Under the pieces are notes generated by a model. It was not told where the DNA came from. It saw only the letters and a program-made list of their open reading frames with translations, and did no database searches. Shown one piece after another: positions 3,022-44,046 of a stretch of DNA of 64,000 nt. Within the stretch, counting starts at the first letter, position 1. The number at the start of each line of letters is the position of its first letter. Where the stretch lies: NCBI GenBank assembly GCA_900472675.1, contig UCJA01000010.1:62001-126000 (forward strand), written 5' to 3'. This DNA comes from Hyphomicrobiales bacterium. GTDB lineage: Bacteria > Pseudomonadota > Alphaproteobacteria > Rhizobiales > Rhizobiaceae. A program made the translations under genes and the position numbers.

Positions 3022-4043
3022 AGGATCGGCTCCGCCGCGGCGACCCGCTCGTGGTGATGACAGGCGGCTCGGCGGCCGTCCGTGCCGACAAGATCGAGTG
3101 GCGGCCTCTGCTTGAGACAGATCTCGGTCGCGAAGCTGCAACGCGGGTGGAAGGCGCAGCCGTCCGGCAGGTCGGTGAGGTTCGGCGGCGTGCCATCGAT
3201 GGACTGCAGCATGGTGCGCGACTGGCCGGAGCGTGGCACCGAGCCCAGCAGGCCGCGCGTATAGGGGTGGTTGGGACAAGCGAAAACATCGGCGACCGTT
3301 CCGGTCTCGACGATGCGGCCCGCATACATCACCGCCATGCGGTCGCAGGTGGCTGCCACAACCCCGAGGTCGTGGGTGACGAGCACGACGCTCATCGCCA
3401 TCCGGTCGCGCAGGTCAAGAAGCAGCTTGAGGATCTGGTCCTGGATGGTGACGTCGAGTGCGGTGGTCGGCTCGTCTGCCAGAAGCAGCTTTGGCGAACA
3501 GGCAAGCGCGATGGCGATCATGGCGCGCTGGCGCATGCCGCCAGAAAACTGGTGCGGATACTCGTCGAGCCGGCGCTCCGGCGCGGGAATGCCGACGATG
3601 TTCATCAGTTCCAGCGCCCGCTCGCGCCGTTGCCGGCGATTGAGATCGGTGTGGGCAACGAGGTTCTCCTCGATCTGGGCACCGATCGGCAGCACAGGAT
3701 TGAGCGCCGTCATCGGCTCCTGGAAGATCATCGCGATCTCCCCGCCGCGCACCCGACGCAGTTCCTCGGCCGGCATTGCCACGAGATCCCGGCCGCCCCA
3801 TTCGACTCGCCCGGTGACTTTGCCGGGTTCGCGGATCAGCCGCATGATCGAGCGCAGGGTGACGCTCTTGCCGGAGCCGGATTCGCCTACGAGCCCGACG
3901 ACCTCGCCGGGCGCCACGTCGAAATCCACGTCTGCTGCGGCAATCGCTACGCCGCGCGAGGTATCGAAGGTGGTGGTGAGGCCGCGCACCAAAAGGCCAG
4001 GTGCGGTCTGCGGCAGGGAAGTTGGAACCGTCGACGCCGTCAT
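3018..4043 (-). CDS. Oligopeptide/dipeptide ABC transporter ATPase (DppD/OppD type)
   Basis: A 341-residue ATPase, partner of the following DppF-type protein. Motifs are Walker A GESGSGKSV, the Q-loop FQEPMTALNP, signature FSGGMRQRAMIA and Walker B LLLADEPTTALD, plus the C-terminal GCAFHPRCSFA element found in peptide importers. The Met at 4043 (MTASTVPTS) is chosen because it overlaps the stop of the upstream permease gene by 4 bases, as elsewhere in this operon. Confidence 0.93.
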   Translation of the reverse strand: MTASTVPTSLPQTAPGLLVRGLTTTFDTSRGVAIAAADVDFDVAPGEVVGLVGESGSGKSVTLRSIMRLIREPGKVTGRVEWGGRDLVAMPAEELRRVRGGEIAMIFQEPMTALNPVLPIGAQIEENLVAHTDLNRRQRRERALELMNIVGIPAPERRLDEYPHQFSGGMRQRAMIAIALACSPKLLLADEPTTALDVTIQDQILKLLLDLRDRMAMSVVLVTHDLGVVAATCDRMAVMYAGRIVETGTVADVFACPNHPYTRGLLGSVPRSGQSRTMLQSIDGTPPNLTDLPDGCAFHPRCSFATEICLKQRPPLDLVGTDGRRAACHHHERVAAAEPIL

Positions 4044-4885
4044 CGCCGCACCCTCAGGATTTCGGCGACGCCGTCGCCCGCCAGGCTGAAGCCGAGACCG
4101 GTCAGCACGATCGCGACCCCTGGAAACACCGAGATCCACCAGGCCGTGTTCATGAAATTCTTGCCATCGGCGATCTGCACGCCCCATTCGGCCGTGGGCG
4201 GCTGGGCACCGAGGCCGAGATAGCCGAGGCTGGAGCCGAGCAGGATGGCGAGTGCCATGTCGGTCATCCAGTAGACAATCGCGGGCGTGATGGCGTTGGG
4301 CAGCAGATGGCGAAAGACGATCCGCCATGGCGTATAGCCCATCACCCGGCCGGCATCCGCATAGTCGAGGCGCTTTTGAACCTTGATCTCGGACGCCACC
4401 AGCCGCGCATAAAACACCCAGCCGACGATACCGACGGCCACATACATATTGCCGAGCCCGGGGCCGAGAACCGAAACAATGGCGATCACCAGCACCAGAA
4501 AGGGGAAGGTGACCGTCGCATCCACCAGTCGACCGAACAGGGCTTCCCAGAAGCCGCCCACATAGCCCACAAAGGCGCCGACCAGCGTGCCGAACACGAA
4601 AGGTCCGACGGTGGCAAAGACGGCGATCTGCATGTCCACCGTATAAGCGTGGATCACGCGCGACAGCACGTCCCGGCCGAAGCTGTCGGTGCCGAAGGGA
4701 TGCGCCAAGCTCGGCGCCGCCAGCAGCGCGTTGTAGTCGAATTCATTGGGATCATAGGGAGCAAACAGCGTCGGCCAGACCGCCATGATCAGGCTGACCA
4801 ACAGAATGCTGCCGCCGGTGATGAGCGAGCGGGGCATGGGCTTGCCGCGCAGCATGGATCGTGCCGTTTTTGCAAGGGCGCTCAT
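4040..4885 (-). CDS. Peptide ABC transporter permease (DppC/OppC type)
   Basis: A 281-residue inner-membrane permease. The N-terminal membrane helix is followed by FAPYDPN and HPFGTDSFGRDVLSRVI, the hallmark of the DppC/OppC branch. Five further hydrophobic segments follow, with the ATPase-contact EAA-type loop DAGRVMGYTPWRIVFRHLLPN. It overlaps both neighbours by 4 bases (4043 and 4882-4885), so all transport genes appear coupled. Confidence 0.93.
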   Translation of the reverse strand: MSALAKTARSMLRGKPMPRSLITGGSILLVSLIMAVWPTLFAPYDPNEFDYNALLAAPSLAHPFGTDSFGRDVLSRVIHAYTVDMQIAVFATVGPFVFGTLVGAFVGYVGGFWEALFGRLVDATVTFPFLVLVIAIVSVLGPGLGNMYVAVGIVGWVFYARLVASEIKVQKRLDYADAGRVMGYTPWRIVFRHLLPNAITPAIVYWMTDMALAILLGSSLGYLGLGAQPPTAEWGVQIADGKNFMNTAWWISVFPGVAIVLTGLGFSLAGDGVAEILRVRR

Positions 4886-5820
4886 CGGGCAATCCTCGGG
4901 TCGAGCCAGGCCTGGAGGATGTCCGTGACGAGGAAGGTCAGGGAGACAAGGACGGCAAGAGAAATCGTCAGGCCCTGCAGGACAGGGTAGTCGCGGCCAT
5001 AGATGCTATCGATCAGCAGGCGGCCGGCGCCTGGTACGGCAAATACGGTCTCGGTGATCACGGCGCCGCCGAACAGTGTGCCGATCTGCAGCCCGAACAG
5101 GGTGACGGTCGAAATCAGGGCGTTGCGCAGGATGTGCTTGATCATGATCACCCGCGACCTGAGCCCCTTGGCGATCGCAAAATCCACGTACTCCGCATTC
5201 ATCACGTTAATGATCGAGGCGCGCAGATTGCGCATCAGCACGGCTGCGAAGCTGAGAGCAAGCGTCAGCGCTGGCAGGAAGAGGTGGTAGAGCTTGTCCG
5301 GCAGCGTGGTGCCGTAGCCGCCGACGGGAAACAGCTTCCACTGCGCGGCAAAAACCGTCAGCAGGATGATCCCTACGTAGAAGACCGGCATGGAGAGGCC
5401 GACCTGGAAGGTGCCGCGGATGACGCTGTCGGCGAGTTTCTCCCGCTTCATCGCCGCCACGAAGGCGAGCGGCACGGAAAGCACCAGCGCGATGACAGCC
5501 GACATCACCGTCAGCATCAGCGTCACCGGCAGGCGGTCGGCGATCAGTGAGGCCACCGAGACCTTGAGGCCGATGGAATTGCCGAGGTCACCCGTGACGA
5601 CCCGTTCGGCGAAATAGAAGAACTGCACGATTAGCGGCTGGTCAAGACCAAGCTCATGGTTGATGCGGTTGACGTCGGCATCCCGGGCGCGGTCGCCGAG
5701 CATTGCACTGGCCGGGTCGCCGGGCAGCATGCGCACCAGAACGAAGGTCACGACCAGGATGAAGATCACCGTCGGGATCATCTGCAGAAGACGGCGGATT
5801 ACGAAACTGAAAAGGGGCAA
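4882..5820 (-). CDS. Peptide ABC transporter permease (DppB/OppB type)
   Basis: A 312-residue inner-membrane permease of the DppB/OppB branch. It starts MPLFSFVIRRLLQMIPTV and continues with VTFVLVRMLPGDPA, the usual N-terminal signature. It has six hydrophobic segments and the EAA-type loop DFAIAKGLRSRVIMIKHILRN. It lies between the binding-protein gene (75-bp gap) and the DppC-type gene (4-bp overlap). The cargo, peptide or another compound such as an opine, cannot be read from the permease. Confidence 0.93.
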   Translation of the reverse strand: MPLFSFVIRRLLQMIPTVIFILVVTFVLVRMLPGDPASAMLGDRARDADVNRINHELGLDQPLIVQFFYFAERVVTGDLGNSIGLKVSVASLIADRLPVTLMLTVMSAVIALVLSVPLAFVAAMKREKLADSVIRGTFQVGLSMPVFYVGIILLTVFAAQWKLFPVGGYGTTLPDKLYHLFLPALTLALSFAAVLMRNLRASIINVMNAEYVDFAIAKGLRSRVIMIKHILRNALISTVTLFGLQIGTLFGGAVITETVFAVPGAGRLLIDSIYGRDYPVLQGLTISLAVLVSLTFLVTDILQAWLDPRIAR

Positions 5821-5895
5821 ACGCCGCTCCCGGATTACCTCTTGCGGAAAAAGCCGCGGACTCCATTTGCGGAGCCCGCGGAGCAGGTTGGGCCG

Positions 5896-7473
5896 TTATT
5901 TGTCTTTCCAGGTCTTGGCAAAGATGTTGTTGCCAAGCGGGATCTGCAGGAAGCCGTGAACCCTCTTGTTCAGAGCGACCGGGTAGGGGGTCTCGAACAG
6001 CGGCACGGTCGGACCCGTCGAGTTGTAGATCTCTTGCATCTTCGCATACTGCTCGGCGCGCTTCTTCGGATCCATTTCCTTCTGCGAGGCTTCGAACAGA
6101 GCGTCGGCCTCCTCGCTCTTCCAGCCCGAATGCAGGGCTTCGATGGTCTTGGAATTCACGAAGTAGGAGGTGATCTCGCTCGGGTCGGCGATGTCGTCCG
6201 TCCAGGCGGCATTGCGCATCAGGAAGGTGCCGTCACGGTACTGCTTGGTCAGCGTCGGATTGTCCACCTGCTGTAGGTCAAGCTTGATGCCGAGCTGCGA
6301 CCACATCTGCTGGACGGCGGTGGAAATGCCGATCTGGTCCTGGTTGCCGGCAAGCACCAGGATGCTGGTCGAGAAGCCCTTTTCAAAGCCGGCTTCCTTC
6401 ATCAGCGCCTTCGCCTTGGCGATGTCGTAAGGGTAGAGCGGCTTGTCACCCGTATGCAGCGGCGTTGCCGTCGACATGTAGGAGGTCTGCTGCGTGCCCA
6501 CGCCATGCGTGACGATCTGGATGATCGCCGGCTTGTTGATCGCATAGTTCATCGCCTGCCGGACCTTGGGGTTGGCCAGCGGGTTGTCCTTGCCGCCCAC
6601 CTGCGGACGTACGTTCATCGTCAGGTACTGGACGCGGGTCGAGGGAAACAGCTGCATGTCGAGGTTTGCCGCCGACTTCAGTTCCGCCACGCGCGAGTAA
6701 GGGATCAGCTCGGCACCATCCAGTTCGCCCGAGTTGAGCTTCAGGATGCGTGTCGCATCGTCCGGAATCAGTTCGAAATCGATGCCGTCCAGATAGGGCA
6801 GTGCTTTTCCGTCCTCGCCCTTGCCCCAGTAGTATTCGTTGCGAACGAGCTTCAACGAGGAGCCGCGGTCCCAGGACTTCAGCACGAAGGCGCCGGAACC
6901 GACCGGATGCTCGCCGAACGACTTTGCCTTTTCCGCCTCGGTGGCGCCTGCGGATGCCTCGAAAGCCTTCTGCGGCATGATGCCGGTGTTGAACACGGTC
7001 AAGGCTGCGAGGATCGCAGGGTCGGGATGCTTGAGCTTGATGGTGACGGTCTTGTCGCCCTCGGTCGTCACGTCATCGATGGACTCGATCATGAAGCCCC
7101 AGATGCCGTTGTCCTTCTTGGACGCGCGCTTCAGCGACCAGGCCACGTCGGCCGGCGTGATCGGCGAACCGTCCGAGAACTTGATGCCGTCGCGCAGCGT
7201 CAGGATGACGCTCGTGTTGTCGGCAGACATCTTGTACTCGCTGGCGAGGCCAGGCTGGACGCCCTTGCCATCATCGGTCGGCAAGAGCAGAGTGTCGTAG
7301 AGGTTGGACAGGATCCAGATGTCGACATTGGCGTCGTTGAGCACCGGATCAAGGAAAAGACTGTCGGCATAACGGCCGTAGGTCAGCGTGCCGCCCCGTT
7401 CCAGGGCGGATGCGGACAGGCTCGTTCCCAGCAGGAGCGTTGCGGCAAGGGCCGCAGTGATCAGGTTCTTCAT
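5896..7473 (-). CDS. Periplasmic solute-binding protein family 5 (DppA/OppA type)
   Basis: A 525-residue extracellular solute-binding protein feeding the adjacent permeases. It has a signal peptide (MKNLITAALAATLLLG, cleavage likely after SASA). The family-5 signature follows: GTLTYGRYADSLFLDPVLND near the N-terminus, LRDGIKFSDGSPITPADVAW, and VRQAMNYAINKPAI in the second half. The ATG at 7473 is preceded by AAGGGGAA at a good distance; the Met six codons upstream lacks this. It is the first gene of the minus-strand operon and faces the GntR regulator across an operator-bearing region. The substrate is inferred only from the neighbours: peptides or an amide-bearing compound. Confidence 0.93.
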   Translation of the reverse strand: MKNLITAALAATLLLGTSLSASALERGGTLTYGRYADSLFLDPVLNDANVDIWILSNLYDTLLLPTDDGKGVQPGLASEYKMSADNTSVILTLRDGIKFSDGSPITPADVAWSLKRASKKDNGIWGFMIESIDDVTTEGDKTVTIKLKHPDPAILAALTVFNTGIMPQKAFEASAGATEAEKAKSFGEHPVGSGAFVLKSWDRGSSLKLVRNEYYWGKGEDGKALPYLDGIDFELIPDDATRILKLNSGELDGAELIPYSRVAELKSAANLDMQLFPSTRVQYLTMNVRPQVGGKDNPLANPKVRQAMNYAINKPAIIQIVTHGVGTQQTSYMSTATPLHTGDKPLYPYDIAKAKALMKEAGFEKGFSTSILVLAGNQDQIGISTAVQQMWSQLGIKLDLQQVDNPTLTKQYRDGTFLMRNAAWTDDIADPSEITSYFVNSKTIEALHSGWKSEEADALFEASQKEMDPKKRAEQYAKMQEIYNSTGPTVPLFETPYPVALNKRVHGFLQIPLGNNIFAKTWKDK

Positions 7474-7516
7474 GGCATTCCCCTTGTTCAAGCTTTGGGC
7501 AGCTGTTCTTATTGGC

Positions 7517-7618
7517 TATAACGATTTCACGGGTCCACAGCTCTGTCAACCGGATTTATAGCGGCTCCAGGTGCTTGGTTGGCTTGACCGTTTGGGTTGC
7601 GAGGGTCTAATCGTTATA
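7517..7618. promoter_or_regulatory. 10-bp inverted repeat between the divergent operons
   Basis: TATAACGATT at 7517-7526 is the exact reverse complement of AATCGTTATA at 7609-7618. One copy lies 43 bases upstream of the binding-protein gene and the other 33 bases upstream of the GntR gene, so each promoter has a copy. The right copy overlaps the tighter palindrome at 7612-7631. I read these as binding sites of the GntR regulator next door, possibly allowing looping. The regulatory role is inference. Confidence 0.6.
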
Positions 7619-7631
7619 GTCATGTATAACG
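7612..7631. promoter_or_regulatory. Probable GntR operator palindrome
   Basis: CGTTATA at 7612-7618 and TATAACG at 7625-7631 form a perfect 7-bp dyad around a 6-base centre. It ends 20 bases before the start codon of the GntR-family gene, where a bound protein would block the promoter or early transcription, so autoregulation is likely. The half-site TATAACG recurs at 7517-7523 near the transporter promoter. Confidence 0.7.
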
Positions 7632-7651
7632 GTCCATGCTGATTGGCTTTC

Positions 7652-8653
7652 ATGGAATTCTTTGTCGACCGCGACCTGCCGGTCCCCCTGCGCACGCAGC
7701 TTCAAGGGCTGATCGAATACGGAATCTCCGGCGGTGAGCTGGGGCCGGGCGAAGCCTTGCCGTCCGTGCGGGAGCTGGCGGAAAAGCTCGGCGTTGCGCC
7801 GATGACGGTCAGCCAGGTCTATGCGGACCTGAAGGCAGTCGGCCTGATTGAGACGCGGCCCGGCGCCGGCACCTTCGTCAGCGAGCAGCGGCCGGCCGGC
7901 CGGCGCGATCCCGGCGTCCTGCACCGGCATATCGACGAGCTCATCGACGAAAGCCGGCTGCTCGGCATCCGCTCGGCCGAACTTGTCTCCATGGTCAGTG
8001 CACGCGTCTTTTACCGCGAAAGCGTCGGCTCACGCCTGCGCATCGTCGTCGTCGGCCTGTTCCAGGATGCGACCGCCAGCTATGCGCGGTTTATCGCCGC
8101 CCGCCTCGGTCGCGACGTGACTGTGGAGCCGATCACCGTTTCGGCGCTCGAACGCGATCCCCAGGTACAGGCGCTGGCCAATTCCGCCGATCTTGCCGTG
8201 ACCTTCGCCAACCGCCAGAAGCAGGTGGCGACACTGGTTCCGAATTCCCGCGTGGTCAGCATCAGCTTCACGCCATCCGAAGAAACCCGACGGGCGCTGG
8301 CCACCCTGAGTTCGCTCGCCCGCATCGCCCTGGTGTCGCGTTTCCCGGAGTTCCTGCCGGTGATGAAGACCGGCGTGCAGCGCTTTGCGCCGCATGTGGC
8401 CGAGATATCGGCCGGCGTGCTCGGGGGGCAGGGGCTGGATACGACGATCGCCGCGGCGACAGTGGTCGTCTATGCCTCCGGCGCGGGAGAAGTGGTGGCG
8501 GAGATACCCGCCGGCATGCAAGCGATCGAATACCGGCATGCGCCGGATGTTGCAGATATCGAGCGGGTGATCGTGCCGATCATGCGGGCTGCCGGCGTCA
8601 CGTCCCAGCCCGGGGAGACGCCGCAGCCCGACACCGTCAATGAACAAGCCTGA
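7652..8653 (+). CDS. GntR-family transcriptional regulator with long effector domain
   Basis: A 333-residue regulator. Residues about 10-75 form the GntR winged helix: PLRTQLQGLIEYGI, LPSVRELAEKLGVAPMTVSQVYADL and the closing wing GLIETRPGAGTFV. The rest (~250 residues) is an alpha/beta ligand-binding region of a kind I do not recognise; it does not look like the usual FCD, UTRA or aminotransferase domains. The ATG at 7652 is preferred over an in-frame TTG three codons upstream, though no strong ribosome site marks either. It is divergent from the peptide transporter and leads the catabolic operon to 12502, so it probably controls both. Confidence 0.85.
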   Translation: MEFFVDRDLPVPLRTQLQGLIEYGISGGELGPGEALPSVRELAEKLGVAPMTVSQVYADLKAVGLIETRPGAGTFVSEQRPAGRRDPGVLHRHIDELIDESRLLGIRSAELVSMVSARVFYRESVGSRLRIVVVGLFQDATASYARFIAARLGRDVTVEPITVSALERDPQVQALANSADLAVTFANRQKQVATLVPNSRVVSISFTPSEETRRALATLSSLARIALVSRFPEFLPVMKTGVQRFAPHVAEISAGVLGGQGLDTTIAAATVVVYASGAGEVVAEIPAGMQAIEYRHAPDVADIERVIVPIMRAAGVTSQPGETPQPDTVNEQA

Positions 8654-8668
8654 GAGGACAAAGCGGCC

Positions 8669-9370
8669 ATGAAGATATCGGAATGTAGCTGGCAGCAGAT
8701 CGAGGACTATCTGAAGACCGACGACCGGGCGATTCTGCCGCTTGGCAGTACGGAACAGCACGCGGGCCTGTCGCTGTCGGTGGACTCGATCCTGTCGGAG
8801 AAGGTCGCGGCGGATGCAGCCGCGCCGCTTGGCATCCCCGTGTTTCCGGTCGTCGCCTATGGCGTCACGCCCTACTTCCTTGCCTATCCCGGCACCATCA
8901 GCATCCGCATCGAGACCTACATCCGGCTGGTTGCCGATATTCTCGACGGGATGCGCCGCCAGGGCTTCCGTCGCATCCTGATCGTCAACGGGCATGGCGG
9001 TAACCAGCCGGCCGGCAGCTTCGCCGCCGAATGGATGGCCGACAATCCGGACACGGTGGTGAAGTTCCACAACTGGTGGAACGCGCCAAAGACCTTCGCC
9101 AAGGTGCAGGAGACGGATACCGTCGCCTCGCACGCCTCCTGGATGGAGAATTTTCCCTGGACGCGGCTTGAGGGCGCCATCCAGCCGACCCAGCAGAAGC
9201 CGATGATCGACCTTGCCCGCATGCGGGTCATGCCGCCAGATGCGGTCAGGGCCTATCTGGGCGACGGCAATTTCGGCGGATATTACGAGCGGCCGGACGA
9301 CGAAATGCAGGCCATCTGGAAGGTGGCGGTTGAAGAAACCCGTGATCTCCTGGAAGGGGGCTGGTCATGA
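8669..9370 (+). CDS. Creatininase-family amidohydrolase
   Basis: A 233-residue metal-dependent amide hydrolase of the creatininase family, which includes creatinine amidohydrolases and enzymes acting on formamides and lactam-type bonds. The metal-binding pattern shows Glu29 and His31 in PLGSTEQHAG, Asp39 in SVDS, and His109 in VNGHGGN. The length fits the family. The substrate is not known. It lies 15 bases after the GntR gene and overlaps the next gene by 4 bases, so it likely hydrolyses a compound brought in by the divergent ABC transporter. Confidence 0.88.
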   Translation: MKISECSWQQIEDYLKTDDRAILPLGSTEQHAGLSLSVDSILSEKVAADAAAPLGIPVFPVVAYGVTPYFLAYPGTISIRIETYIRLVADILDGMRRQGFRRILIVNGHGGNQPAGSFAAEWMADNPDTVVKFHNWWNAPKTFAKVQETDTVASHASWMENFPWTRLEGAIQPTQQKPMIDLARMRVMPPDAVRAYLGDGNFGGYYERPDDEMQAIWKVAVEETRDLLEGGWS

Positions 9371-10386
9371 CCCCGCCCATCCTGATCTGGGGCGCCGGCG
9401 CGATCGGCGGAACACTGGGCGCAGCCTTCATCCGGGCCGGCGAAGAGGTGATCTTCGTCGACAACGTCCAGGCGCATGTGGATGCCATCAACGAAAAAGG
9501 GTTGAAGATCGTCGGCCCGATCTTCGAGGATACGGTCAAGGCAATTGCCTGCATGCCGGATGAACTCATGGGCGTCTTCGAGCGCAGCTTCCTTTGCGTC
9601 AAGGCGCACCACACGGAAGATGCGGCCCGCGCCATGGTCGAGCACATCGCCTCCGACGGTTATATCGTCTCGGCCCAGAACGGGTTAAACGAACGGGTCA
9701 TCGCCCGCATTGCCGGCCAGAACCGCGTTGTCGGCTGCTTCGTCAATTTCGGCGCTGATTACCTGGAGCCGGGCGTCGTCCAGTACAGTGGCCATGGCGC
9801 TGCGGTGATCGGCGAACTCGACGGCCGCTTCAGCGATCGGGCCGAGGATATCTACCAGCTGATGAAATCGCTCGAGCCGAAGGCGCTCATCACCAGCAAT
9901 ATCTGGGGCTTCCTCTGGGGCAAGCTGGTCTATGGTACGCTGCTGTTCGGCACGGCGCTGACCGACGATAGCATCGCCGATGTTTTCGCGGACGTGACGG
10001 CACGGCCCGTGCTGCGCAAGCTGGCGCTGGAAGTGGCAACGGTCGCTGCCATCAACAACATCCAGCCGGAACCCTTCGACGGGTTCGATCCCGTCGCCTT
10101 CGGGCCGCTGGCAACGCCGGAGCAGACCGACAAGTCCTTCGACGACATGGTCGTCCACAACCGCAAATCCGCCAAGTCCCATTCGGGTATCTGGCGTGAC
10201 CTCGCCGTGCGCAAGCGCAAGACCGAAGTGGATGCGCAGGTGCTGCCGGTGGTCGAGATCGGCCTGGAAACGCATGTGCCGACGCCGCTGACCGCGCGAC
10301 TGATGGAGATGATCCACGAAATCGAGGATGGCAAGCGGCCGCTGTCGCGCGCCAACCTCGATGAACTTGCAAAGGCTGCCCCATGA
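9367..10386 (+). CDS. Ketopantoate reductase (PanE/ApbA) family oxidoreductase
   Basis: A 339-residue NAD(P)-dependent 2-oxoacid reductase-like protein. The N-terminal Rossmann motif is ILIWGAGAIGGTLGAAF, followed by CVKAHHTEDA, where the family contacts cofactor. A central NIWGFLWGKLVYG element carries the Lys and Asn typical of the PanE active site. It overlaps its neighbours by 4 bases on each side. The catabolic context argues for a paralogue acting on another hydroxy or oxo acid rather than pantothenate synthesis. Confidence 0.85.
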   Translation: MTPPILIWGAGAIGGTLGAAFIRAGEEVIFVDNVQAHVDAINEKGLKIVGPIFEDTVKAIACMPDELMGVFERSFLCVKAHHTEDAARAMVEHIASDGYIVSAQNGLNERVIARIAGQNRVVGCFVNFGADYLEPGVVQYSGHGAAVIGELDGRFSDRAEDIYQLMKSLEPKALITSNIWGFLWGKLVYGTLLFGTALTDDSIADVFADVTARPVLRKLALEVATVAAINNIQPEPFDGFDPVAFGPLATPEQTDKSFDDMVVHNRKSAKSHSGIWRDLAVRKRKTEVDAQVLPVVEIGLETHVPTPLTARLMEMIHEIEDGKRPLSRANLDELAKAAP

Positions 10387-11129
10387 ACATCGGTTTTGAC
10401 AACAAGGTTGTGATCGTGACCGGCGCGGCCCACGGATTCGGACGCGCGATTGCGCAGAATTTCGCCGACCGCGGTGCTGTGGTGCATGCCTGCGACATCA
10501 ATGCTGACGGTCTTGAGGAAACGGTTGCGCTTTGCGGTCCGCGGGCGAAATCCCATATCCTCGACGTCGGCCAGCGGGCGCAGGTGCAGGCAGCGGTGGC
10601 GCAGATCGGCGACGTCGATATTCTCGTCAACAATGCCGGTGGGGTGCGTGGCCAGGTCGGCCGTCCGATCGAGGAGATCTCCGAAAGCGACTGGCAGGGG
10701 ATCTTCGACGTCAATCTTTCGGGTGCCTTTTTCATGAGCCAGGCGGTCGCGCCGGCCATGAAGCGGAAGCAGGCGGGCCGTATCGTCAACATCTCGAGCG
10801 GTGCCGGGCTCGGCATTTCGCTCACGGGAATCCAGGCCTATGCCAGCGCCAAGGCCGGGCAGATCGGCTTGACCCGCCAGCTTGCCCATGAACTCGGACC
10901 CTGGAACATCACCGTCAACAATGTCGCCCCGGGCTTCGTGCGCTCCAATCCGAGCACGGAAAAACAATGGGATGCCATGGGGGAGGAGGGGCAGGCGCGC
11001 CTTCTCCAGAACATCGCCCTGAAGCGGCTCGGAACAGCCGATGACATCGCCGCCATGGTGATGTTCTTCGCCTCCGATCAGGCAAATTGGATAACCGGCC
11101 AGGTGATCAGCGTCGATGGTGGAAAATGA
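10383..11129 (+). CDS. Short-chain dehydrogenase/reductase (SDR)
   Basis: A 248-residue classical SDR, NAD(P)-dependent. The cofactor motif is VTGAAHGFGRAIA, followed by DILVNNAGG, the catalytic Ser in VNISSGAG, and Tyr/Lys in AYASAKAG. The C-terminus ITGQVISVDGGK is typical. It is coupled to both neighbours by 4-base overlaps. It probably oxidises or reduces an intermediate in the same pathway as the PanE-like protein; the substrate is unknown. Confidence 0.9.
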   Translation: MNIGFDNKVVIVTGAAHGFGRAIAQNFADRGAVVHACDINADGLEETVALCGPRAKSHILDVGQRAQVQAAVAQIGDVDILVNNAGGVRGQVGRPIEEISESDWQGIFDVNLSGAFFMSQAVAPAMKRKQAGRIVNISSGAGLGISLTGIQAYASAKAGQIGLTRQLAHELGPWNITVNNVAPGFVRSNPSTEKQWDAMGEEGQARLLQNIALKRLGTADDIAAMVMFFASDQANWITGQVISVDGGK

Positions 11130-12502
11130 GCGTCGAAACCTATCTGGAAGACCATTATCCTGACGCGCTGGATGACCTGAAGGCCTTCTGCCGGCTGCCG
11201 AGCGTCAGCACCGATCCGGCCTATGCCGAAGGGATCAGGGCGGCGGCAGGCTTCGTCGCGGACCGATTGACGCGGGCCGGTTTCTCCGGCGTGCAACTTC
11301 TGCCGACGGATGGGCATCCGGCGGTGTTCGGCGAGATCATCACCGATCCGGCTCTGCCAACCTATCTGGTCTATGGCCATTACGATGTGCAGCCACCGGA
11401 CCCGCTGGACAAGTGGCAGAGCCCACCCTTCGAGCCGACCGAGCGCAACGGGCGGCTCTACGCACGCGGTGTGTCCGACGACAAGGGCCCGCTGCTGATC
11501 CCCATCCTGGTGGCTGAAGCCTTTCTCAAGACCGAGGGCCGGCTGCCGGTGAACCTCAAGGTGCTGATCGAAGGCGAGGAGGAATCAGGCAGTCCGCATT
11601 TCGAAGACGTCCTGACGGCGCATCGGGAAAAGCTCAGCTGCGATCTGGTTCTGTCGGCAGACGGCGCCATGTGGCGGTCCGATCGTCCGTCCATCACAGT
11701 CGCCAGCCGTGGCCTGGTTGCGCTCGAAGTGACGGTGACGGGCGCGGGCAAGGACCTGCACTCCGGCCGACACGGAGGCGGTGCTCCGAACCCTATTGCA
11801 GCCCTTGCGGGCCTGATGGCCTCCATGCATGGGCAAGACGGTCGTGTCAGCGTCGACGGCTTCTGGGATGGCGTCACGCCGCCCGATCCGAAGATCATCG
11901 CCGCCATTGAGGAGGCAGATATCGACGCCGCTGCCTATTACCGCGAGATCGGGGTAGAGGGAGCAGGGCCGATCGCCACCGGGCGGGAGCTGCTGATGCG
12001 CCAGTGGCTGGAGCCGACCCTGGAATTCAACGGGATCTCCGGCGGCTACCAGGGAATGGGCACCAAGACGGTGATCCCGAACACGGCGAGCGTCAAGATC
12101 ACCTGCCGGCTGGTGGCGGGGCAGGTGCCCGACCAGGTCCTGGGTGCCATTACCCGTCATCTCGAGGCGCGGTTACCGAACGGCGTTACGCTCGACGTTC
12201 ATCGCCACGGACCCGGCAGCGCCGCGGATTTCGTGGATCCGGACCTGCCGGCGCTCAAGATTTCGGAGGAGGTTCTGGGCGAACTTTTGGGCGCCACGCC
12301 CCTGCGGGTCGCCATGGGTGCAACGGTGCCGATCGGCAGCGCCTTCCGCAAGCACCTGGGCTGCGCCTCGATCTTCTTTTCCTTCTCCACCTCGGACGAG
12401 GATTACCACGCGCCGAACGAGTTCCTTCGGCTCGACAACTTTAAGATCGGGATGAAAGCCTGGGCACGGCTCCTGCACCGTCTCGGTGCATCCGGCGGCT
12501 GA
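11126..12502 (+). CDS. M20/M25/M40 family metallopeptidase (dipeptidase-like)
   Basis: A 458-residue two-domain zinc hydrolase of the M20 dipeptidase branch (CNDP/ArgE/DapE relatives). Metal ligands and catalytic residues appear as YGHYDVQPPDPLDKW (His, Asp), IEGEEESGSP (catalytic and metal Glu), LSADGAMW (Asp) and a C-terminal His in DYHAPNEF. The ATG at 11126 overlaps the SDR stop (ATGA). As last gene of the operon it would cleave a dipeptide or acylated amino acid, fitting the peptide transporter and M32 enzyme across the divide. Confidence 0.9.
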   Translation: MSVETYLEDHYPDALDDLKAFCRLPSVSTDPAYAEGIRAAAGFVADRLTRAGFSGVQLLPTDGHPAVFGEIITDPALPTYLVYGHYDVQPPDPLDKWQSPPFEPTERNGRLYARGVSDDKGPLLIPILVAEAFLKTEGRLPVNLKVLIEGEEESGSPHFEDVLTAHREKLSCDLVLSADGAMWRSDRPSITVASRGLVALEVTVTGAGKDLHSGRHGGGAPNPIAALAGLMASMHGQDGRVSVDGFWDGVTPPDPKIIAAIEEADIDAAAYYREIGVEGAGPIATGRELLMRQWLEPTLEFNGISGGYQGMGTKTVIPNTASVKITCRLVAGQVPDQVLGAITRHLEARLPNGVTLDVHRHGPGSAADFVDPDLPALKISEEVLGELLGATPLRVAMGATVPIGSAFRKHLGCASIFFSFSTSDEDYHAPNEFLRLDNFKIGMKAWARLLHRLGASGG

Positions 12503-12522
12503 TACTGAAGCAACCGGAACGT

Positions 12523-12551
12523 GCACCTGTGCCATATCCGGGCACAGGTGC
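12523..12551 (+). terminator. Perfect 11-bp stem-loop after the M20 gene
   Basis: GCACCTGTGCC at 12523-12533 pairs exactly with GGCACAGGTGC at 12541-12551 around a 7-base loop, 21 bases after the M20 stop. No T-run follows, so it is either a rho-dependent or processing-type 3' end, or a weak terminator. The stem is long enough that chance is unlikely. Confidence 0.55.
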
Positions 12552-12628
12552 CTCCGGCTTTAAGGCTGAGGAAGCCATAGCGTTTGCTTTTGGTGTAACC
12601 TTTTTCGCAGCCGACGCATTGTCGAGTC

Positions 12629-12721
12629 ATGACGAGACGGCTCAGAAACTACCTACTGGCGTTTGCGATTTCGATGGTGATGTGGATCGCCATCCTGACG
12701 ATGATCGCCTGGCTATGGTAA
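12629..12721 (+). CDS. Possible 30-residue single-span membrane protein
   Basis: An ATG at 12629 opens a 30-codon frame ending in TAA. The product begins MTRRLRNY and continues as one uninterrupted hydrophobic helix with several Met and Trp residues, ending AWLW. A positively charged N-terminus plus a ~20-residue hydrophobic stretch is the typical form of bacterial small membrane proteins. The ribosome site is weak, which lowers confidence. It lies alone between the M20 gene and the minus-strand small ORF. Confidence 0.35.
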   Translation: MTRRLRNYLLAFAISMVMWIAILTMIAWLW

Positions 12722-12792
12722 TAACGGCTTCAAGCGCCGCTACGCTCATGCATCCCTCAATCCGTAACCGCCCGGCTATGCCGCATGCCTGT

Positions 12793-12936
12793 TCAGTCCA
12801 CGCGCCCGATCTTGAGACGTGGCGGGAGTGTCTGGCCGTTGTCCGGTGCCGGCTCCGGCTTGGGGCGTTCGCGGTCGATCAGGCGCCATTCGCGCTCCAG
12901 CTTATCGACCAGGCTCTGCGGTAGGGTCTCTGCCAT
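12793..12936 (-). CDS. Small charged hypothetical protein, 47 aa
   Basis: Starting at the Met at 12936, just after a GGGAGAG ribosome site, the frame encodes MAETLPQSLVDKLEREW and a charged proline-rich tail ending LKIGRVD. An upstream extension to 13002 lacks this ribosome site. It has no membrane segment or known motif. The ribosome site and a helix-forming start make a real gene plausible; the function is unknown. Confidence 0.5.
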   Translation of the reverse strand: MAETLPQSLVDKLEREWRLIDRERPKPEPAPDNGQTLPPRLKIGRVD

Positions 12937-39539: not shown

Positions 39540-40853
39540 TCAGGAATAGCGCGACAGCATCTTCATCAGCGGCACCCGGGCCCGCATGTTGGCGCAGAGC
39601 AGGGCCATGCCGCTGATCTTGCGCTGGGTGAAGAGCTTTTCAGCAGCCGGCAGGTGCCAGGTGGTGCGGTCGGCGAGCATGGGGGCCGCCTGGTCGCGAA
39701 GCGTCGTGACGATGTCTCGCTTGCCGAAATCGAAGAGACCGTCGCGATCCTCCTGAAGGTGCCGGACGGCGAGACGGAGCATCGCATCCAGCGCAGCGCC
39801 ATGGCGGGACATCTGTGCGGTGGAGATGAAACCCATGGTCACCAGCGCCTTCCGGATCGCCGCGACATCGCCCGCCAGCCCTGCGCGGAGCAAGGTGCGA
39901 TAGTCGTCGGCGGTTTGGGCCGTGACCGGACGCGTCGCGCCGAAGTCGAGAAGAACGATACGACCGCTGTCGCGCTGCCAGCGATAGTTGGCGAAGTTCG
40001 GGTCGGTCTGCATCAGGCCGAATTCAAACAGCTCCTTCAGCACCAGATCCAGCAGGGCTTCCATGGCTGCGTTACGCTCGATGTCTGATGCGCTGTTCAA
40101 CGTCTCGATGGGTGCACCGGGCAGGAAATCCATGGGGAGTACCGTCGGACGCAGCAGGTCGTCGATAGGTGTGGGCACGACAAAGCGCGTGTCGCCCAGA
40201 AGCAGCGCGCTATACCGCCGCATCTGGTCAGCCTCGCGCAGATAGTCGGCTTCCTCATGGAGCTGTTGCTTGGCGGCTGCCAGGTGCGGCGTGATATTGA
40301 GACTTGGCGGCCAAAGACCCGAGATCCGCAGCAAGGTCGCGACATTATCGATATCCGCGTCGATGCTTGCCGCAATTCCCTGATACTGCACCTTGACCGC
40401 AAGGTCCCGGCCGTCCGCGAGCGTGGCGCGATGAACCTGACCGATTGAGGCGGCGGCAATCGGTGTGGTGTCGAACTGGAGGAAGTGTCGACTCCATCCA
40501 GGCCCCCAGGCAGTGTCGAGGCTTTGCTGCAGCTGGGCTGGCGGCATAAAATGCGCCGTGTCTCGCAGTTGGCCGAGGATAGTGGTGAGCTCGGACGGCA
40601 GAAGATCGCCGGCATCAAGTGACAGCATCTGGCCAAGTTTCATCGCCGCACCCCGCATCCGGGAAAGCTGATCGGTCACCTTCAGCGCATTGGAGGGCGT
40701 GAGCAGCAGGTCGGACAGATGCGGCCGCTCCCCTCGCGAGAGCCGGCGCAGACCCTCGCCCATCATTCCAGTCGCGACACCGCCGGCGAGCTGACCCAAG
40801 GCTGCTAGCCGACCAAGACGGCCGTGGGGTACCGGGCGAAAACGATCCTTCAC
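39540..40853 (-). CDS. UbiB/AarF/ABC1-family atypical kinase
   Basis: A 437-residue member of the UbiB protein-kinase-like family, known to bind ATP and support quinone or lipid metabolism. The family marks are MKLGQMLSLD (KxGQ motif), AAASIGQVHRA (Ala-rich nucleotide loop), LAVKVQY (Lys), FGLMQTDPNFANY (catalytic Asp/Asn) and IVLLDFGATR (metal Asp). The GTG at 40853 overlaps the stop of the upstream DCC gene (GTGA) and has GAGG 9 bases before it. No flanking ubiquinone genes are present, so its partner is likely one of the flavoproteins in this module. Confidence 0.88.
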   Translation of the reverse strand: MKDRFRPVPHGRLGRLAALGQLAGGVATGMMGEGLRRLSRGERPHLSDLLLTPSNALKVTDQLSRMRGAAMKLGQMLSLDAGDLLPSELTTILGQLRDTAHFMPPAQLQQSLDTAWGPGWSRHFLQFDTTPIAAASIGQVHRATLADGRDLAVKVQYQGIAASIDADIDNVATLLRISGLWPPSLNITPHLAAAKQQLHEEADYLREADQMRRYSALLLGDTRFVVPTPIDDLLRPTVLPMDFLPGAPIETLNSASDIERNAAMEALLDLVLKELFEFGLMQTDPNFANYRWQRDSGRIVLLDFGATRPVTAQTADDYRTLLRAGLAGDVAAIRKALVTMGFISTAQMSRHGAALDAMLRLAVRHLQEDRDGLFDFGKRDIVTTLRDQAAPMLADRTTWHLPAAEKLFTQRKISGMALLCANMRARVPLMKMLSRYS

Positions 40854-41197
40854 TGGAAAAACCTCTGCAAGCGGGGCCGCACACGCAGGAAACCTCGGTA
40901 AGCCTTGTCGAACGATGGCGTGGCAGGAGGCCAGCCCGCGATCAGGCCGAGCGGGCGCAACAGCGGTATGGCGCGCCACATGGCGGCGAAGGCCGCCGCG
41001 CCCGACAGGAGCTTGCCCGCTTCTTCGGCATGAAAGCGCGACAGGATCTCAGCCCGATCGACGGGACACGATGCTGTGGGATCGCAGGCATCGATGAAGC
41101 GGATGGCGTTGCGTCGGTCCAGTTTTCGCATCATCGCAATCTCGCGCCGGCAAAGCGGGCAGCTGCTGTCAAACCAGACGGTGACCTGTTTTATCAT
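40850..41197 (-). CDS. DCC-family (DUF393) thiol-disulfide oxidoreductase-like protein
   Basis: A 115-residue protein with the DCC signature VWFDSSCPLCRREI, a thioredoxin-like CxxC (CPLC) after an Asp. It continues with RFIDAC and FHAEEAGKLLSGAAAFAAMWRAI, standard for the family. The Met at 41197 overlaps the photolyase-like stop (ATGA) and its own stop overlaps the UbiB-like GTG. It probably handles disulfide or thiol redox chemistry in the cytoplasm. DUF393 proteins are often found next to photolyase and quinone genes, as here. Confidence 0.85.
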   Translation of the reverse strand: MIKQVTVWFDSSCPLCRREIAMMRKLDRRNAIRFIDACDPTASCPVDRAEILSRFHAEEAGKLLSGAAAFAAMWRAIPLLRPLGLIAGWPPATPSFDKAYRGFLRVRPRLQRFFQ

Positions 41198-42402
41198 GAC
41201 GTGTGGTGTGCGGTGTTGATGAGCATGGGTATCTTTTCCTTGAGTTTGAAGAAGCCTTTGCGGCAATGGGGCCACGCGCGGCGATCCCAGCCGCGCAGAT
41301 GTTCGGCAAACAGAAGCTCTACGTGTTCGGCTTCGCGGCGCAGCAGCGCAATGCGGGTGGCCGTCTGGCCAACCGGGGCGAAACCTGTGACGACCTGCCG
41401 GCATCCTGCAGCCCTCGCGCGGGCAAGGGCGGACACAGTCAGCGGCCCAAGCCCGTCAGCGTCCGGCCACCGCCGCCGCGCGCGCGACAGAGCATCGTCC
41501 AGTGCGGTGCTGTCGGCAGCTGTCTCGGCCGGTATCACCGCAAGCCACCTGACCGGAAGGGGGTCCAGTTCAGGCACGGTTTCCAGCGACAGGTCCTCCA
41601 CCGAGATCAGGAGTGCGGTCGGCGACAAGAGGTCCGGCGCCCTGAATATCCGAGGCGGAGCCGGGGAGGGCACCGCGATGCTGTCGGCCGGAACCAGGGC
41701 GTCGCGGGCAAGACCCTGCGGCGCGAAACGGCCCTCGGTCATTTCCTTGATCCGATCGGCGTCGGCGAGATAGGCCTTTCCCGCTGTGTGCAGCCCAGCA
41801 ACCCATCGCCATGACAAGGTGTTGGAGGCTGGATCCGCGTCGATCAACCGGTCCAGCATGAACGCCGCGCCAAGCTCCCAGGGCAGGCCAAGCGTGAAGA
41901 TCCAGATGGATGCGAACTGCATGCGTGCCCAATTGTGCAGATAGCCGCTGGTTTCCAGTTCCGATACCCAGGCATCGAAACAGTCGATCCCGCTTCGCCC
42001 GCCTGTTGCCTCGCCATACCGATCCGCCAGTGACGAATCCGTCTCCAGTTGCTGGCGCGCGCGGTCCAGGGCTTCCAGGTAACCCGTCCAGACTGCCGGC
42101 CGCTGTTCCAGCCAGCCTTTCCAGTAGGTGCGCCAGAAGACCTCGCTGATGAACTTGTGGGCCAGAACTGGCCCATGCTGCGCCAGGACAGCGGCCACCA
42201 CCTCTTCTTCGGAGACCACCCGACGCCGCAATGCTGCGGAAAGCCGTGAGACATGATGATGGCCTCCCGGGCCGCCATCGAGGTTTCGCATGCGAGCGTA
42301 AGCCGACCCGGCCTTGGGCAGGAAGGCCTGTAGACGTTCCAGCGCATCCTGACGCGTCAGCGGAAAGCTGGGCTGCTCACATGGGGATGCGCCGGTTGCC
42401 AA
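41194..42402 (-). CDS. Photolyase/cryptochrome FAD-domain protein without antenna domain
   Basis: A 402-residue protein. Residues ~10-240 carry the FAD-binding helical domain of the photolyase/cryptochrome family: YARMRNLDGGPGGHHHVSRL, HKFISEVFWRTYWKGWLEQRP (two pieces: HKFISEVFW, TYWKGWLEQRP), SGYLHNWARMQFASIW, DADPASNTLSWRWVAGLH and GRFAPQGLA. The N-terminal alpha/beta antenna domain (usually ~130 residues) is missing. Instead a C-terminal ~150-residue region of alpha/beta character follows (WLAVIPAETAADS, RQVVTGFAPVGQTATRIALL). The start is a TTG with AGGA 7 bases upstream. The protein may be a light-dependent or redox flavoprotein rather than a repair enzyme. Confidence 0.82.
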   Translation of the reverse strand: MATGASPCEQPSFPLTRQDALERLQAFLPKAGSAYARMRNLDGGPGGHHHVSRLSAALRRRVVSEEEVVAAVLAQHGPVLAHKFISEVFWRTYWKGWLEQRPAVWTGYLEALDRARQQLETDSSLADRYGEATGGRSGIDCFDAWVSELETSGYLHNWARMQFASIWIFTLGLPWELGAAFMLDRLIDADPASNTLSWRWVAGLHTAGKAYLADADRIKEMTEGRFAPQGLARDALVPADSIAVPSPAPPRIFRAPDLLSPTALLISVEDLSLETVPELDPLPVRWLAVIPAETAADSTALDDALSRARRRWPDADGLGPLTVSALARARAAGCRQVVTGFAPVGQTATRIALLRREAEHVELLFAEHLRGWDRRAWPHCRKGFFKLKEKIPMLINTAHHTS

Positions 42403-42430
42403 GAGGAGTTCCTAACGTGTGCTTCATAGG

Positions 42431-42459
42431 AGTTACGCCCACGGTCGCCTGTTGGATCA
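42431..42459 (-). promoter_or_regulatory. Probable RpoE-ChrR (ECF11) type promoter of the photolyase-like operon
   Basis: On the minus strand TGATCC (42459-42454) is followed by exactly 18 bases and then TAACT (42435-42431). This matches the TGATC-N18-TA pattern established for the singlet-oxygen sigma factor RpoE of Rhodobacter sphaeroides, whose targets include a photolyase gene. Transcription would start near 42424, giving a leader of about 22 bases to the TTG start, with AGGA in between. No sigma factor gene is in the window. Confidence 0.6.
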
Positions 42460-42548
42460 GGGTCAGGTTACCCCATTGCGCCGCTCCTGATCCCCAGCGC
42501 CAGGCTTTGGCCAGGGCCGCTTGAAACCTCGAAATCCGAGCCGCAGCC

Positions 42549-42578
42549 TGATCGGCTTGCGGGTGTGATACGTATCGG
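42549..42578 (+). promoter_or_regulatory. Weaker ECF11-like promoter facing the renalase-like gene
   Basis: TGATCG (42549-42554), an 18-base spacer and TATCG (42573-42577) on the plus strand repeat the layout found on the other strand 90 bases away. Only the core TGATC and TA are conserved, so the support is mainly the matching spacing and orientation. The start codon of the flavoprotein is 42 bases downstream of the -10-like element. Confidence 0.35.
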
Positions 42579-42619
42579 TGGTTGGTGGGTTTGAGCCACC
42601 GCCGAAGATCGGATGAGAC

Positions 42620-43621
42620 ATGGCAAGACGGATACGGCTGGGCATTATCGGAGCAGGGATCGCCGGACTGACGCTGGCAAGAACGATGGCCGATGCCGAT
42701 TGTGCCGATGTCAGGATTTTCGACAAGAGCAGAGGCGTCGGCGGTCGGATGGCGACACGGCGAAGCGATGCTGGGGCATTTGATCACGGCGCGCAGTATT
42801 TCACCATCAGGGATGAGCGTTTCCGCGCGGCGCTGGAAACGGCGCGGGCCGACGGCGCGATCCAGCCCTGGAAAGGTGCGATGGTGACGCTGCCGGAAGG
42901 TGATCCGGCGGCGCAGTCGGCGACCGAGACGACGCGTTACGTCGGTAGCCCTTCGATGAACGCGCTTGCGAAAGCTATGGCGGCGGGTCTCGACATCCAG
43001 ACTGACGCGCATGTGGCGGCCATCACGGGCACACCCGGCCAGTGGTTCCTGCAGATCGGTGATCGCAGTGAGGGCCCGTTCGACTGGGTGGTCGCAGCGG
43101 CGCCGGCGCCGCAGTCCGCGTCGCTTCTTCCGGACGCGTTTACGCATCATGCGGCGCTGGCACAGGTCCGGATGAACGCCTGCTTTACCCTGATGATCCG
43201 CCAGACGGAGGATGCGGGGCTTCCCTTCGCCGCCGCCCGAGTCGATGATCCCGTCATTGGCTGGATCTCCCGCAATAACTCCAAGCCGGGACGGGGTGAT
43301 GAGCCCTGCCTCGTGGTCAACGCGACGGCAGAATGGTCGGATGCCAATCTGGAAGAGCCGCTGGACGATGTTCGCCGCAGCATGCTGGAGGCCCTCCGAG
43401 GCTATGTTCCCATCTCCACAAGCGAAGCGGAGTCTGCGATGATCCATCGTTGGCGCTATGCCAATGTCGAGCGGCCGGCCGGGCAGGCCTTCCTTCTCGA
43501 TGACGTGTCGCGACTGGCAGCCTGCGGAGACTGGTGCATCGTGGGGCGGGTCGAAGCAGCGTTTTTGAGCGCCATGGCACTGGGCGATGCACTTAAAGAG
43601 ATCTTGAAGGCAGCACCATGA
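42620..43621 (+). CDS. Renalase-like NAD(P)/FAD-dependent oxidoreductase
   Basis: A 333-residue flavoprotein. The N-terminal dinucleotide fold is LGIIGAGIAGLTLARTMADA with the ribose-binding acid in VRIFDKSRGVGGRMATRR; the latter run FDKSRGVGGRMATRR is the renalase/amine-oxidase-like signature, followed by FDHGAQYFTIRD. The C-terminal FAD closure is ACGDWCIVGRVEAAFLSA. The stop overlaps the DUF3429 start (ATGA). It runs divergent from the photolyase-like gene. Similar proteins oxidise off-pathway nicotinamide forms or amines; the substrate here is unknown. Confidence 0.85.
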   Translation: MARRIRLGIIGAGIAGLTLARTMADADCADVRIFDKSRGVGGRMATRRSDAGAFDHGAQYFTIRDERFRAALETARADGAIQPWKGAMVTLPEGDPAAQSATETTRYVGSPSMNALAKAMAAGLDIQTDAHVAAITGTPGQWFLQIGDRSEGPFDWVVAAAPAPQSASLLPDAFTHHAALAQVRMNACFTLMIRQTEDAGLPFAAARVDDPVIGWISRNNSKPGRGDEPCLVVNATAEWSDANLEEPLDDVRRSMLEALRGYVPISTSEAESAMIHRWRYANVERPAGQAFLLDDVSRLAACGDWCIVGRVEAAFLSAMALGDALKEILKAAP

Positions 43622-44046
43622 CAACCAGCCCGCGGACTATTTCCACGCTTTTGACCTACAGCGGGGCCCTGCCGTTCTGGCTGCTGGCATTTGCCCCCTC
43701 GACGGCTCTGGGTTTCCAGACGGCAACCGTCTTCCTGTCCTATGGGGCCGTGATCGCATCCTTCATGGCAGGAGCCCTGTGGGGCAGCGCCCAGAGCGGC
43801 CGAGGCGACCTCGTGGTGATCATCGCCAGCAACGTGCTGGCGCTTGTTGCCTTTGCAACCCTTGTTGCCGGGCCTTTGCCGATAGCATTGCTTGTGCAGC
43901 TGCTGCTGTTTGCACTCCTGCTGGTCGCCGACCATCGGGTCCATGCGGGGGAGACGGCGCGGCAGTGGTATTGGAAACTGCGCGTCAGGGTCACTGTGCT
44001 GGTCGCCCTTGCCTATTGCGTCATGCTCTTCCGCTACGCCCTGTAA
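43618..44046 (+). CDS. DUF3429-family membrane protein
   Basis: A 142-residue integral membrane protein with four or five hydrophobic segments (LTYSGALPFWLLAFAPS, VFLSYGAVIASFMAGALWG, LVVIIASNVLALVAFATLV, IALLVQLLLFALLLVA, VTVLVALAYCVMLF). The FLSYGAVIASFMAGALWG and WYWKLRVRVT elements match the DUF3429 pattern as I know it. It is translationally coupled to the renalase-like gene and ends 43 bases before the convergent monooxygenase. The function is unknown; the coupling suggests a membrane partner for the flavoprotein. Confidence 0.75.
   Translation: MTTSPRTISTLLTYSGALPFWLLAFAPSTALGFQTATVFLSYGAVIASFMAGALWGSAQSGRGDLVVIIASNVLALVAFATLVAGPLPIALLVQLLLFALLLVADHRVHAGETARQWYWKLRVRVTVLVALAYCVMLFRYAL

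Follow-up and report, generated by a model that had tools for sequence, protein, structure and literature searches.

The window analyzed here, 64,000 nucleotides from a member of the Hyphomicrobiales (contig UCJA01000010.1, positions 62,001 to 126,000), contains five genes arranged as two divergent operons, the leftward one headed by a photolyase gene and the rightward one by a renalase gene:

42402-41194, reverse strand: NewPHL-type photolyase; TTG start, 402 amino acids; Pfam FAD_binding_7 at residues 84-211, Z-domain at ~262-402
41197-40850, reverse strand: DCC1-like (DUF393) thiol-disulfide oxidoreductase family protein (Pfam); 115 amino acids, CxxC near the N-terminus
40853-39540, reverse strand: COQ8-type ABC1/UbiB atypical kinase; GTG start, 437 amino acids; KLGQ, AAAS, QTDPNFAN, and DFG motifs
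42620-43621, forward strand: bacterial renalase; ATG start, 333 amino acids; matches PDB 4zcc and 3kkj near full length
43618-44046, forward strand: DUF3429 protein (Pfam); 142 amino acids, hydrophobic by eye and probably a membrane protein

The five open reading frames (ORFs), their coordinates, three stop-start overlaps, and the intergenic gap are all as described in a sequence-only reading of this DNA. The photolyase and DCC genes share ATGA (41194-41197), the DCC and COQ8 genes share GTGA (40850-40853), and the renalase and DUF3429 genes share ATGA (43618-43621); the divergent operons are separated by 217 bp (42403-42619). All five proteins score above the curated Pfam cut-offs (FAD_binding_7, DCC1-like, ABC1, Amino_oxidase with NAD_binding_8, and DUF3429); a sequence search of PDB with the DCC protein returned no match. 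The GC content of the module (0.61-0.64) is no outlier. The sequence-only reading could match the parts to no pathway that it could name; NewPHL, renalase, and COQ8 are known families. The parts are of known kinds, and it is the combination for which no report was found in literature searches; the extended regulon of Dufour et al. (2008) may list some of its members.

The intergenic gap had been taken as one common promoter region, but it holds two separate promoter-like sites, back to back and each oriented toward its own operon:

42459-42434, reverse strand: leftward ECF11 (RpoE-ChrR) promoter-like site, TGATCCAACAGGCGACCGTGGGCGTA; TGATCC-N16-CGTA, 10/10 match
42549-42574, forward strand: rightward ECF11 (RpoE-ChrR) promoter-like site, TGATCGGCTTGCGGGTGTGATACGTA; TGATCG-N16-CGTA, 9/10 match

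The -10 element lies 31 bp ahead of the photolyase TTG start on the left and 45 bp ahead of the renalase ATG on the right. The RpoE-ChrR promoter was defined as TGATCC-N16-CGTA by chromatin immunoprecipitation sequencing in P. syringae (PMC5507510), and the same elements and spacing occur in Shewanella, where start sites were mapped for rpoE2 and pgpD (PMC4336711). An initial promoter guess with N18 spacing to TA was dropped. TGATCS-N16-CGTA occurs twice in the 64-kb window, both times in the gap (the exact consensus once); shuffles of the window gave a mean of 0.20 matches, with at least two in 2 of 100, the S in the pattern having been permitted only after the right-hand site had been seen. 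On balance we favor the interpretation that the five genes form a photo-oxidative-stress repair module that would be controlled by RpoE-ChrR (ECF11).

By profile match, the genome carries rpoE-chrR: ChrR scores 221.7 bits against TIGR02451 (cut-off 124.5), and the ORF upstream, which overlaps chrR, is by eye an extracytoplasmic function (ECF) sigma factor. Across the genome, TGATCS-N16-CGTW has 58 matches, six of them perfect, including the leftward gap site. A perfect (10/10) motif is also found at the opening codons of an ordinary photolyase's longest ORF; one 9/10 motif falls just within the longest ORF of rpoE, and another 129 bp ahead of a cfaS-like ORF (genes named by eye). By itself the pattern is weak, since most of the other matches examined sit within long ORFs; placement and orientation carry the argument. 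The reversed pattern gave 8 matches vs. 58, which is no measure of significance because codon bias may favor the forward pattern. Among the 19 NewPHL genomes of the order (own genome included), 17 have a strong ChrR match, vs. 171 of 297 above the cut-off overall (chance of at least 17/19, 0.002, uncorrected for relatedness); of the other two, G262 has a weak ChrR and G196 none listed. The contig that carries the window also has a partial, sub-threshold ChrR-like match of 46.8 bits, covering profile positions 120-201 (G000:C21:146736-146975, L004).

The promoter consensus, its spacing, and the presence of rpoE-chrR all resemble the RpoE-ChrR core regulon of Rhodobacter, Pseudomonas, and Shewanella, in which photolyase and cfaS are core members; here both have the motif or a near-match. 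The table of eight core ECF11 genes in PMC5507510 names none of NewPHL, COQ8, DCC, and DUF3429. It does include an amine-oxidase-type flavoprotein, RSP_1091.

Related loci offer further instances of the motif. Of 538 confirmed relatives, the best 80 make up the named NewPHL loci. In three of these 80, the 400 bp upstream of the NewPHL match contain a perfect consensus, vs. 21 of 19,235 background windows; nine have a site of 9/10 or better, vs. 213 of the windows. In the Rhizobiaceae NewPHL operons L034, L035, and L038, the perfect site is at -56, -76, and -60 from the match start, nearly the same position as the leftward site of the window (-57 from the TTG). Of the 147 module operon heads outside the own genome, seven have the perfect consensus no more than 160 bp away, vs. 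48 of 60,000 background windows (binomial p = 5e-11, uncorrected for relatedness and computed after some cases had been seen). These heads are NewPHL in L034, L035, and L038, DUF3429 in genomes G280 and G077, and renalase in two Asticcacaulis plasmids, where the consensus starts 34 bp ahead of the renalase start. In G280, G077, and Asticcacaulis the -10 element ends just 8-9 bp ahead of the listed start, so the transcripts would be nearly leaderless or the true starts lie further down. G024 (L217) has a perfect site 39 bp ahead of an ordinary photolyase that is followed by NewPHL; it stands outside the seven because the operon head is not a module gene. A different element, TGATCC-N18-AGAAGA, recurs roughly 70-290 bp upstream of the longest ORF at Rhodobacterales NewPHL loci (among them L057, L061, L068, L069, and L081) and does not match the ECF11 -10. 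At Rhodobacterales loci, wider synteny, including clpP/clpX-like genes, looks by eye like ordinary lineage synteny.

The five families are also recurrently linked. Loci were picked for holding one family, and L204-L210 after adjacency had been seen, so the linkage counts record recurrence, not frequency. The least biased figure comes from the 297 genomes of the order: besides the own genome, 18 have a NewPHL-type match (E ≤ 1e-40), in some cases truncated at a contig end, and in 6 of these 18 (G021, G067, G080, G115, G134, and G277) renalase and NewPHL, or the operon containing NewPHL, stand head-to-head, the matches being 0.1-0.5 kb apart. Renalase itself (E ≤ 1e-30) is found in 61 of the 297 genomes, including 10 of the 18. 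A DCC gene heads the NewPHL operon in G021, G067, and G134, and the order NewPHL-DCC-COQ8 recurs in Rhizobiaceae. Among the best 80 NewPHL loci, 15 of 15 DCC matches (14 loci) and 10 of 10 COQ8 matches are within 1.5 kb of NewPHL. All ten family pairs occur at most 1.5 kb apart in at least one locus outside the own genome, the COQ8-renalase pair in a single locus.

COQ8-type genes are rare: at E ≤ 1e-40 they occur in 2 of the 297 order genomes (the own genome and G005, where the gene adjoins renalase-DUF3429), and at E ≤ 1e-60 in 7 of 385 genomes of the class. Of the six besides the own genome, G470 and G565 have DUF3429-DCC-COQ8, G440 has DUF3429 ~1.3 kb off, and G308, G618, and G318 have no module neighbor. 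DUF3429 has matches in 48 of the 297 besides the own genome; at 20 hand-picked better loci, a photolyase-family gene adjoins or lies within ~1.2 kb in eight and renalase adjoins in three, weaker amine-oxidase-type matches at five DUF3429 loci (E 4e-08 to 2e-05, ~1.4 kb off) being left uncounted. Gene content was read for five of eight NewPHL plasmid records (H1, H3, H4, H5, and H8; not H2, H6, or H7). Two Asticcacaulis plasmids carry renalase-NewPHL-DUF3429 with COQ8 ~1.2 kb further, a Novosphingobium ES2-1 plasmid has DUF3429 divergent from NewPHL, and a Peteryoungia plasmid has COQ8-NewPHL; NewPHL on a Niveispirillum plasmid has none of the four partner families. On the Asticcacaulis plasmids, a gene annotated as pyridoxine 5'-phosphate synthase lies between DUF3429 and the COQ8-type gene (L232:4330-5382, L233:6654-7706). 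Vitamin B6 is a singlet-oxygen quencher.

Several observations weigh against a repair module under RpoE-ChrR control. The sequence-only reading had made rare co-occurrence of the five genes a refuting condition, and the outcome is mixed: partial sets recur, but the complete set was seen in only one further locus, L036 (Rhizobium sp. AC27/96). The module is accessory, because the 12 other sampled genomes of the family (one of the same genus) have no NewPHL at E ≤ 1e-40; they likewise have no COQ8-type gene (E ≤ 1e-40), no renalase (E ≤ 1e-30), and no DUF3429 (E ≤ 0.001). Among the best 80 loci, three DUF3429 matches are within 1.5 kb of NewPHL and three beyond, and both renalase matches are more than 1.5 kb away. 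Of the seven other COQ8-type loci found via COQ8 itself, three (L228, L229, and L231) have no module neighbor. As for the promoters, 140 of the 147 operon heads have no perfect consensus within 160 bp. The head-to-head NewPHL-renalase loci L205-L209 have no site of at least 9/10 in the fetched stretches, L204 has two 9/10 sites located elsewhere, and the L036 NewPHL operon has a site of only 9/10, with none seen ahead of its renalase. In the own genome, the photolyase and rpoE motifs lie just inside the longest ORFs and could act as promoters only with true starts further downstream, and the cfaS motif overlaps other long ORFs.

L036 has a setting of its own. The five families lie within 4476-12851 (8.4 kb), and the order across L036:2094-12851 is cfaS, two small proteins, DUF3429, renalase, folE, a short-chain dehydrogenase/reductase, a PhrB-type photolyase, DUF2256, and NewPHL-DCC-COQ8 (names beyond the five families read by eye). 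The cfaS gene (2094-3122) is 1.4 kb outside the five-gene stretch, and folE has a perfect ECF11 motif inside its longest ORF. This region is an apparent photo-oxidative stress island.

Such arrangements bear on the strongest rival explanation, that the genes have only a regulator in common: one stress would call up all of them and accessory DNA would carry them as a group, each product working alone and outside any joint pathway. The mix-and-match arrangements, with no fixed order across loci, are what this would produce; copies are found on megaplasmids, the set is absent from the same-genus genome sampled, and known regulon members with unrelated activities share a locus in the tables of PMC5507510. 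Some coupling is nevertheless suggested by the stop-start overlaps in the window, the 8-bp DCC-NewPHL overlaps in L204 and L209, and the DCC-NewPHL pairs that recur at loci of Rhizobiaceae, Gemmobacter, Sphingomonadales, and Caulobacteraceae. We consider this explanation a serious possibility, if somewhat short of an even chance.

As the sequence-only reading had recognized, the photolyase has no N-terminal antenna domain of the usual kind, but its description there as a flavin adenine dinucleotide (FAD) domain only is incomplete, because a C-terminal alpha/beta domain (residues ~262-402) is predicted with high confidence. This Z-domain may be the antenna domain in a displaced position. This well-predicted second domain led us to reject a photolyase FAD domain alone, and a previously unseen domain-swapped photolyase was rejected because the same domain order is already in the NewPHL/Phr7 literature (PMC9426592 and PMC13274461). 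By alignment and predicted structure, the protein is of the NewPHL type, a known kind. Its scores against the DASH cryptochrome model TIGR02765 (55.4, cut-off 317.05) and the E. coli-type photolyase model NF007955 (65.2, cut-off 506) fall below both cut-offs. An alignment of 63 rows (the window protein and 62 of the best 80 loci) shows E87, W90, N157, M161, N194, W198, and W200 to be invariant in 63/63; by alignment they map to E. coli photolyase E274, W277, N341, M345, N378, W382, and W384, which we take to be residues of the cyclobutane pyrimidine dimer (CPD) pocket and the flavin site. The tryptophan (Trp) dyad W175 and W198 is likewise invariant (63/63), whereas no aromatic is conserved in the column that corresponds to W306 (Trp one column earlier in 10/63 rows). 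There are no conserved iron-sulfur cysteines, no cysteine column exceeding 31/63 rows. NewPHL/Phr7 photolyases are said, in citing papers, to be the subject of Emmerich et al. in 2020.

PMC9426592 and PMC13274461 describe NewPHL/Phr7 proteins as CPD repair enzymes that act on dimers in single-stranded DNA and have a Trp dyad instead of a triad and no iron-sulfur cysteines. The window protein shares with these an N-terminal FAD and a C-terminal alpha/beta domain, the conserved residues of the CPD pocket, and the lack of any family-wide conserved cysteine or conserved distal Trp. It differs in its gene setting: its operon also contains DCC and COQ8 and diverges from renalase-DUF3429, and sites matching the ECF11 promoter lie between the two. 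Because this photolyase/cryptochrome-family flavoprotein has a member of an atypical kinase family and DUF3429 as neighbors, it might instead be read as a cryptochrome-like blue-light receptor with the COQ8-type kinase or the membrane protein as its signaling target. We regard this as very improbable, given the invariance of the tested CPD-pocket residues, the published description of the family as repair enzymes, the presence of a stress sensor in ChrR, and the many NewPHL genes with no COQ8 or DUF3429 in the fetched flank. Another scheme starts from NewPHL having a Trp dyad only and being reportedly poor at photoreduction: the DCC1-like protein and/or renalase-managed electrons would keep it reduced, with COQ8 and DUF3429 as the link to the membrane quinone pool. 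If this were true, DNA repair would draw its power from the respiratory membrane under photo-oxidative stress; the scheme seems decidedly unlikely to us. At six NewPHL loci (L060, L077, L078, L083, L092, and L097), an ordinary photolyase-family gene of ~510 codons lies directly 3' of NewPHL; the two ORFs share 4 bp in all but L060, which suggests a two-photolyase operon.

The rightward flavoprotein is, by homology, a full-length bacterial renalase: it aligns with PDB 4zcc over residues 5-327 of 333 (E = 3e-55), vs. 3.8e-07 for another renalase, PDB 3qj4. The bacterial renalases of known structure (PDB 4zcc, 4zcd, and 5krq) are the closest known counterparts, from which it differs in its gene setting. 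Bacterial renalase oxidizes 2-/6-dihydro-NAD(P) isomers. The ABC1/UbiB family assignment of the third leftward gene, earlier called UbiB/AarF-like, holds and can be sharpened to COQ8-type: the protein matches COQ8B over residues 4-433 (E = 1.7e-72, 247.9 bits), vs. 116.3 bits for 7cy2, the highest-scoring ABC1 protein of known structure outside COQ8, and it carries the KxGQ, AAAS, QTDPNxxN, and DFG motifs that we take to be the COQ8 signature. Canonical UbiB was rejected for this kinase (TIGR01982, 126.9 vs. a cut-off of 487.55 bits). Unlike COQ8A and COQ8B, which it resembles in homology and motifs, it is bacterial, lies in a photolyase operon, and shares its genome with a more distant ABC1 protein (C18:115374; a 538-amino-acid frame, 28% identity), itself a probable canonical UbiB. 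A second COQ8-like stretch lies near a contig end (G000:C33:320870-321085, L182; 54% identity to residues 362-434).

A COQ8-type protein, together with a renalase whose amine-oxidase-type flavoprotein fold could serve another substrate, would also fit an operon for quinone biosynthesis or turnover with an incidental photolyase. This is unlikely in view of the probable canonical UbiB elsewhere in the genome, the match of the promoters to a stress type, and the surroundings of COQ8 in L036, L188, and L226-L231, where no ubi gene was noticed by eye.

Under the favored interpretation of a stress-induced repair module, singlet oxygen or organic hydroperoxides would free RpoE from ChrR, and RpoE-RNA polymerase would then fire both divergent promoters in the gap. 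The five products would work in parallel on different damage. NewPHL would use blue light to repair pyrimidine dimers in single-stranded DNA, and renalase would remove NAD(P)H isomers that are mis-reduced and inhibitory. The COQ8-type protein might mobilize or maintain a quinone or another lipid in the oxidized membrane. The COQ8 family has a lipid role, and this step is suggested by homology to it. The DCC1-like protein may be a source of thiol/disulfide chemistry, and DUF3429 may be a membrane partner of the other products. The sequence-only reading had proposed a coupled set that senses or repairs photo-oxidative damage. Its core, a coupled set for the repair of such damage, is supported by RpoE-ChrR-type promoter matches in both directions and by the recurrent linkage of the five families, but sensing is better placed with ChrR, which is encoded elsewhere in the genome.

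RpoE-ChrR photo-oxidative stress would thus be a likely physiological setting for NewPHL photolyases and for renalase, COQ8-type kinases, DUF393, and DUF3429, whose roles in bacteria are unclear. COQ8, renalase, and DUF3429 (TMEM69) have human relatives of debated function; one small bacterial gene set would be a tractable place to study the joint action of COQ8, renalase, and DUF3429. The interpretation also predicts that the singlet-oxygen regulon extends to this set. Elsewhere in the genome, ECF11-like motifs outside ORFs of at least 120 amino acids lie upstream of a flavodoxin-like reductase ORF (L121, G000:C14:338664) and a TetR-like regulator ORF (L138, G000:C22:39715), both named by eye, which are possible further regulon members.

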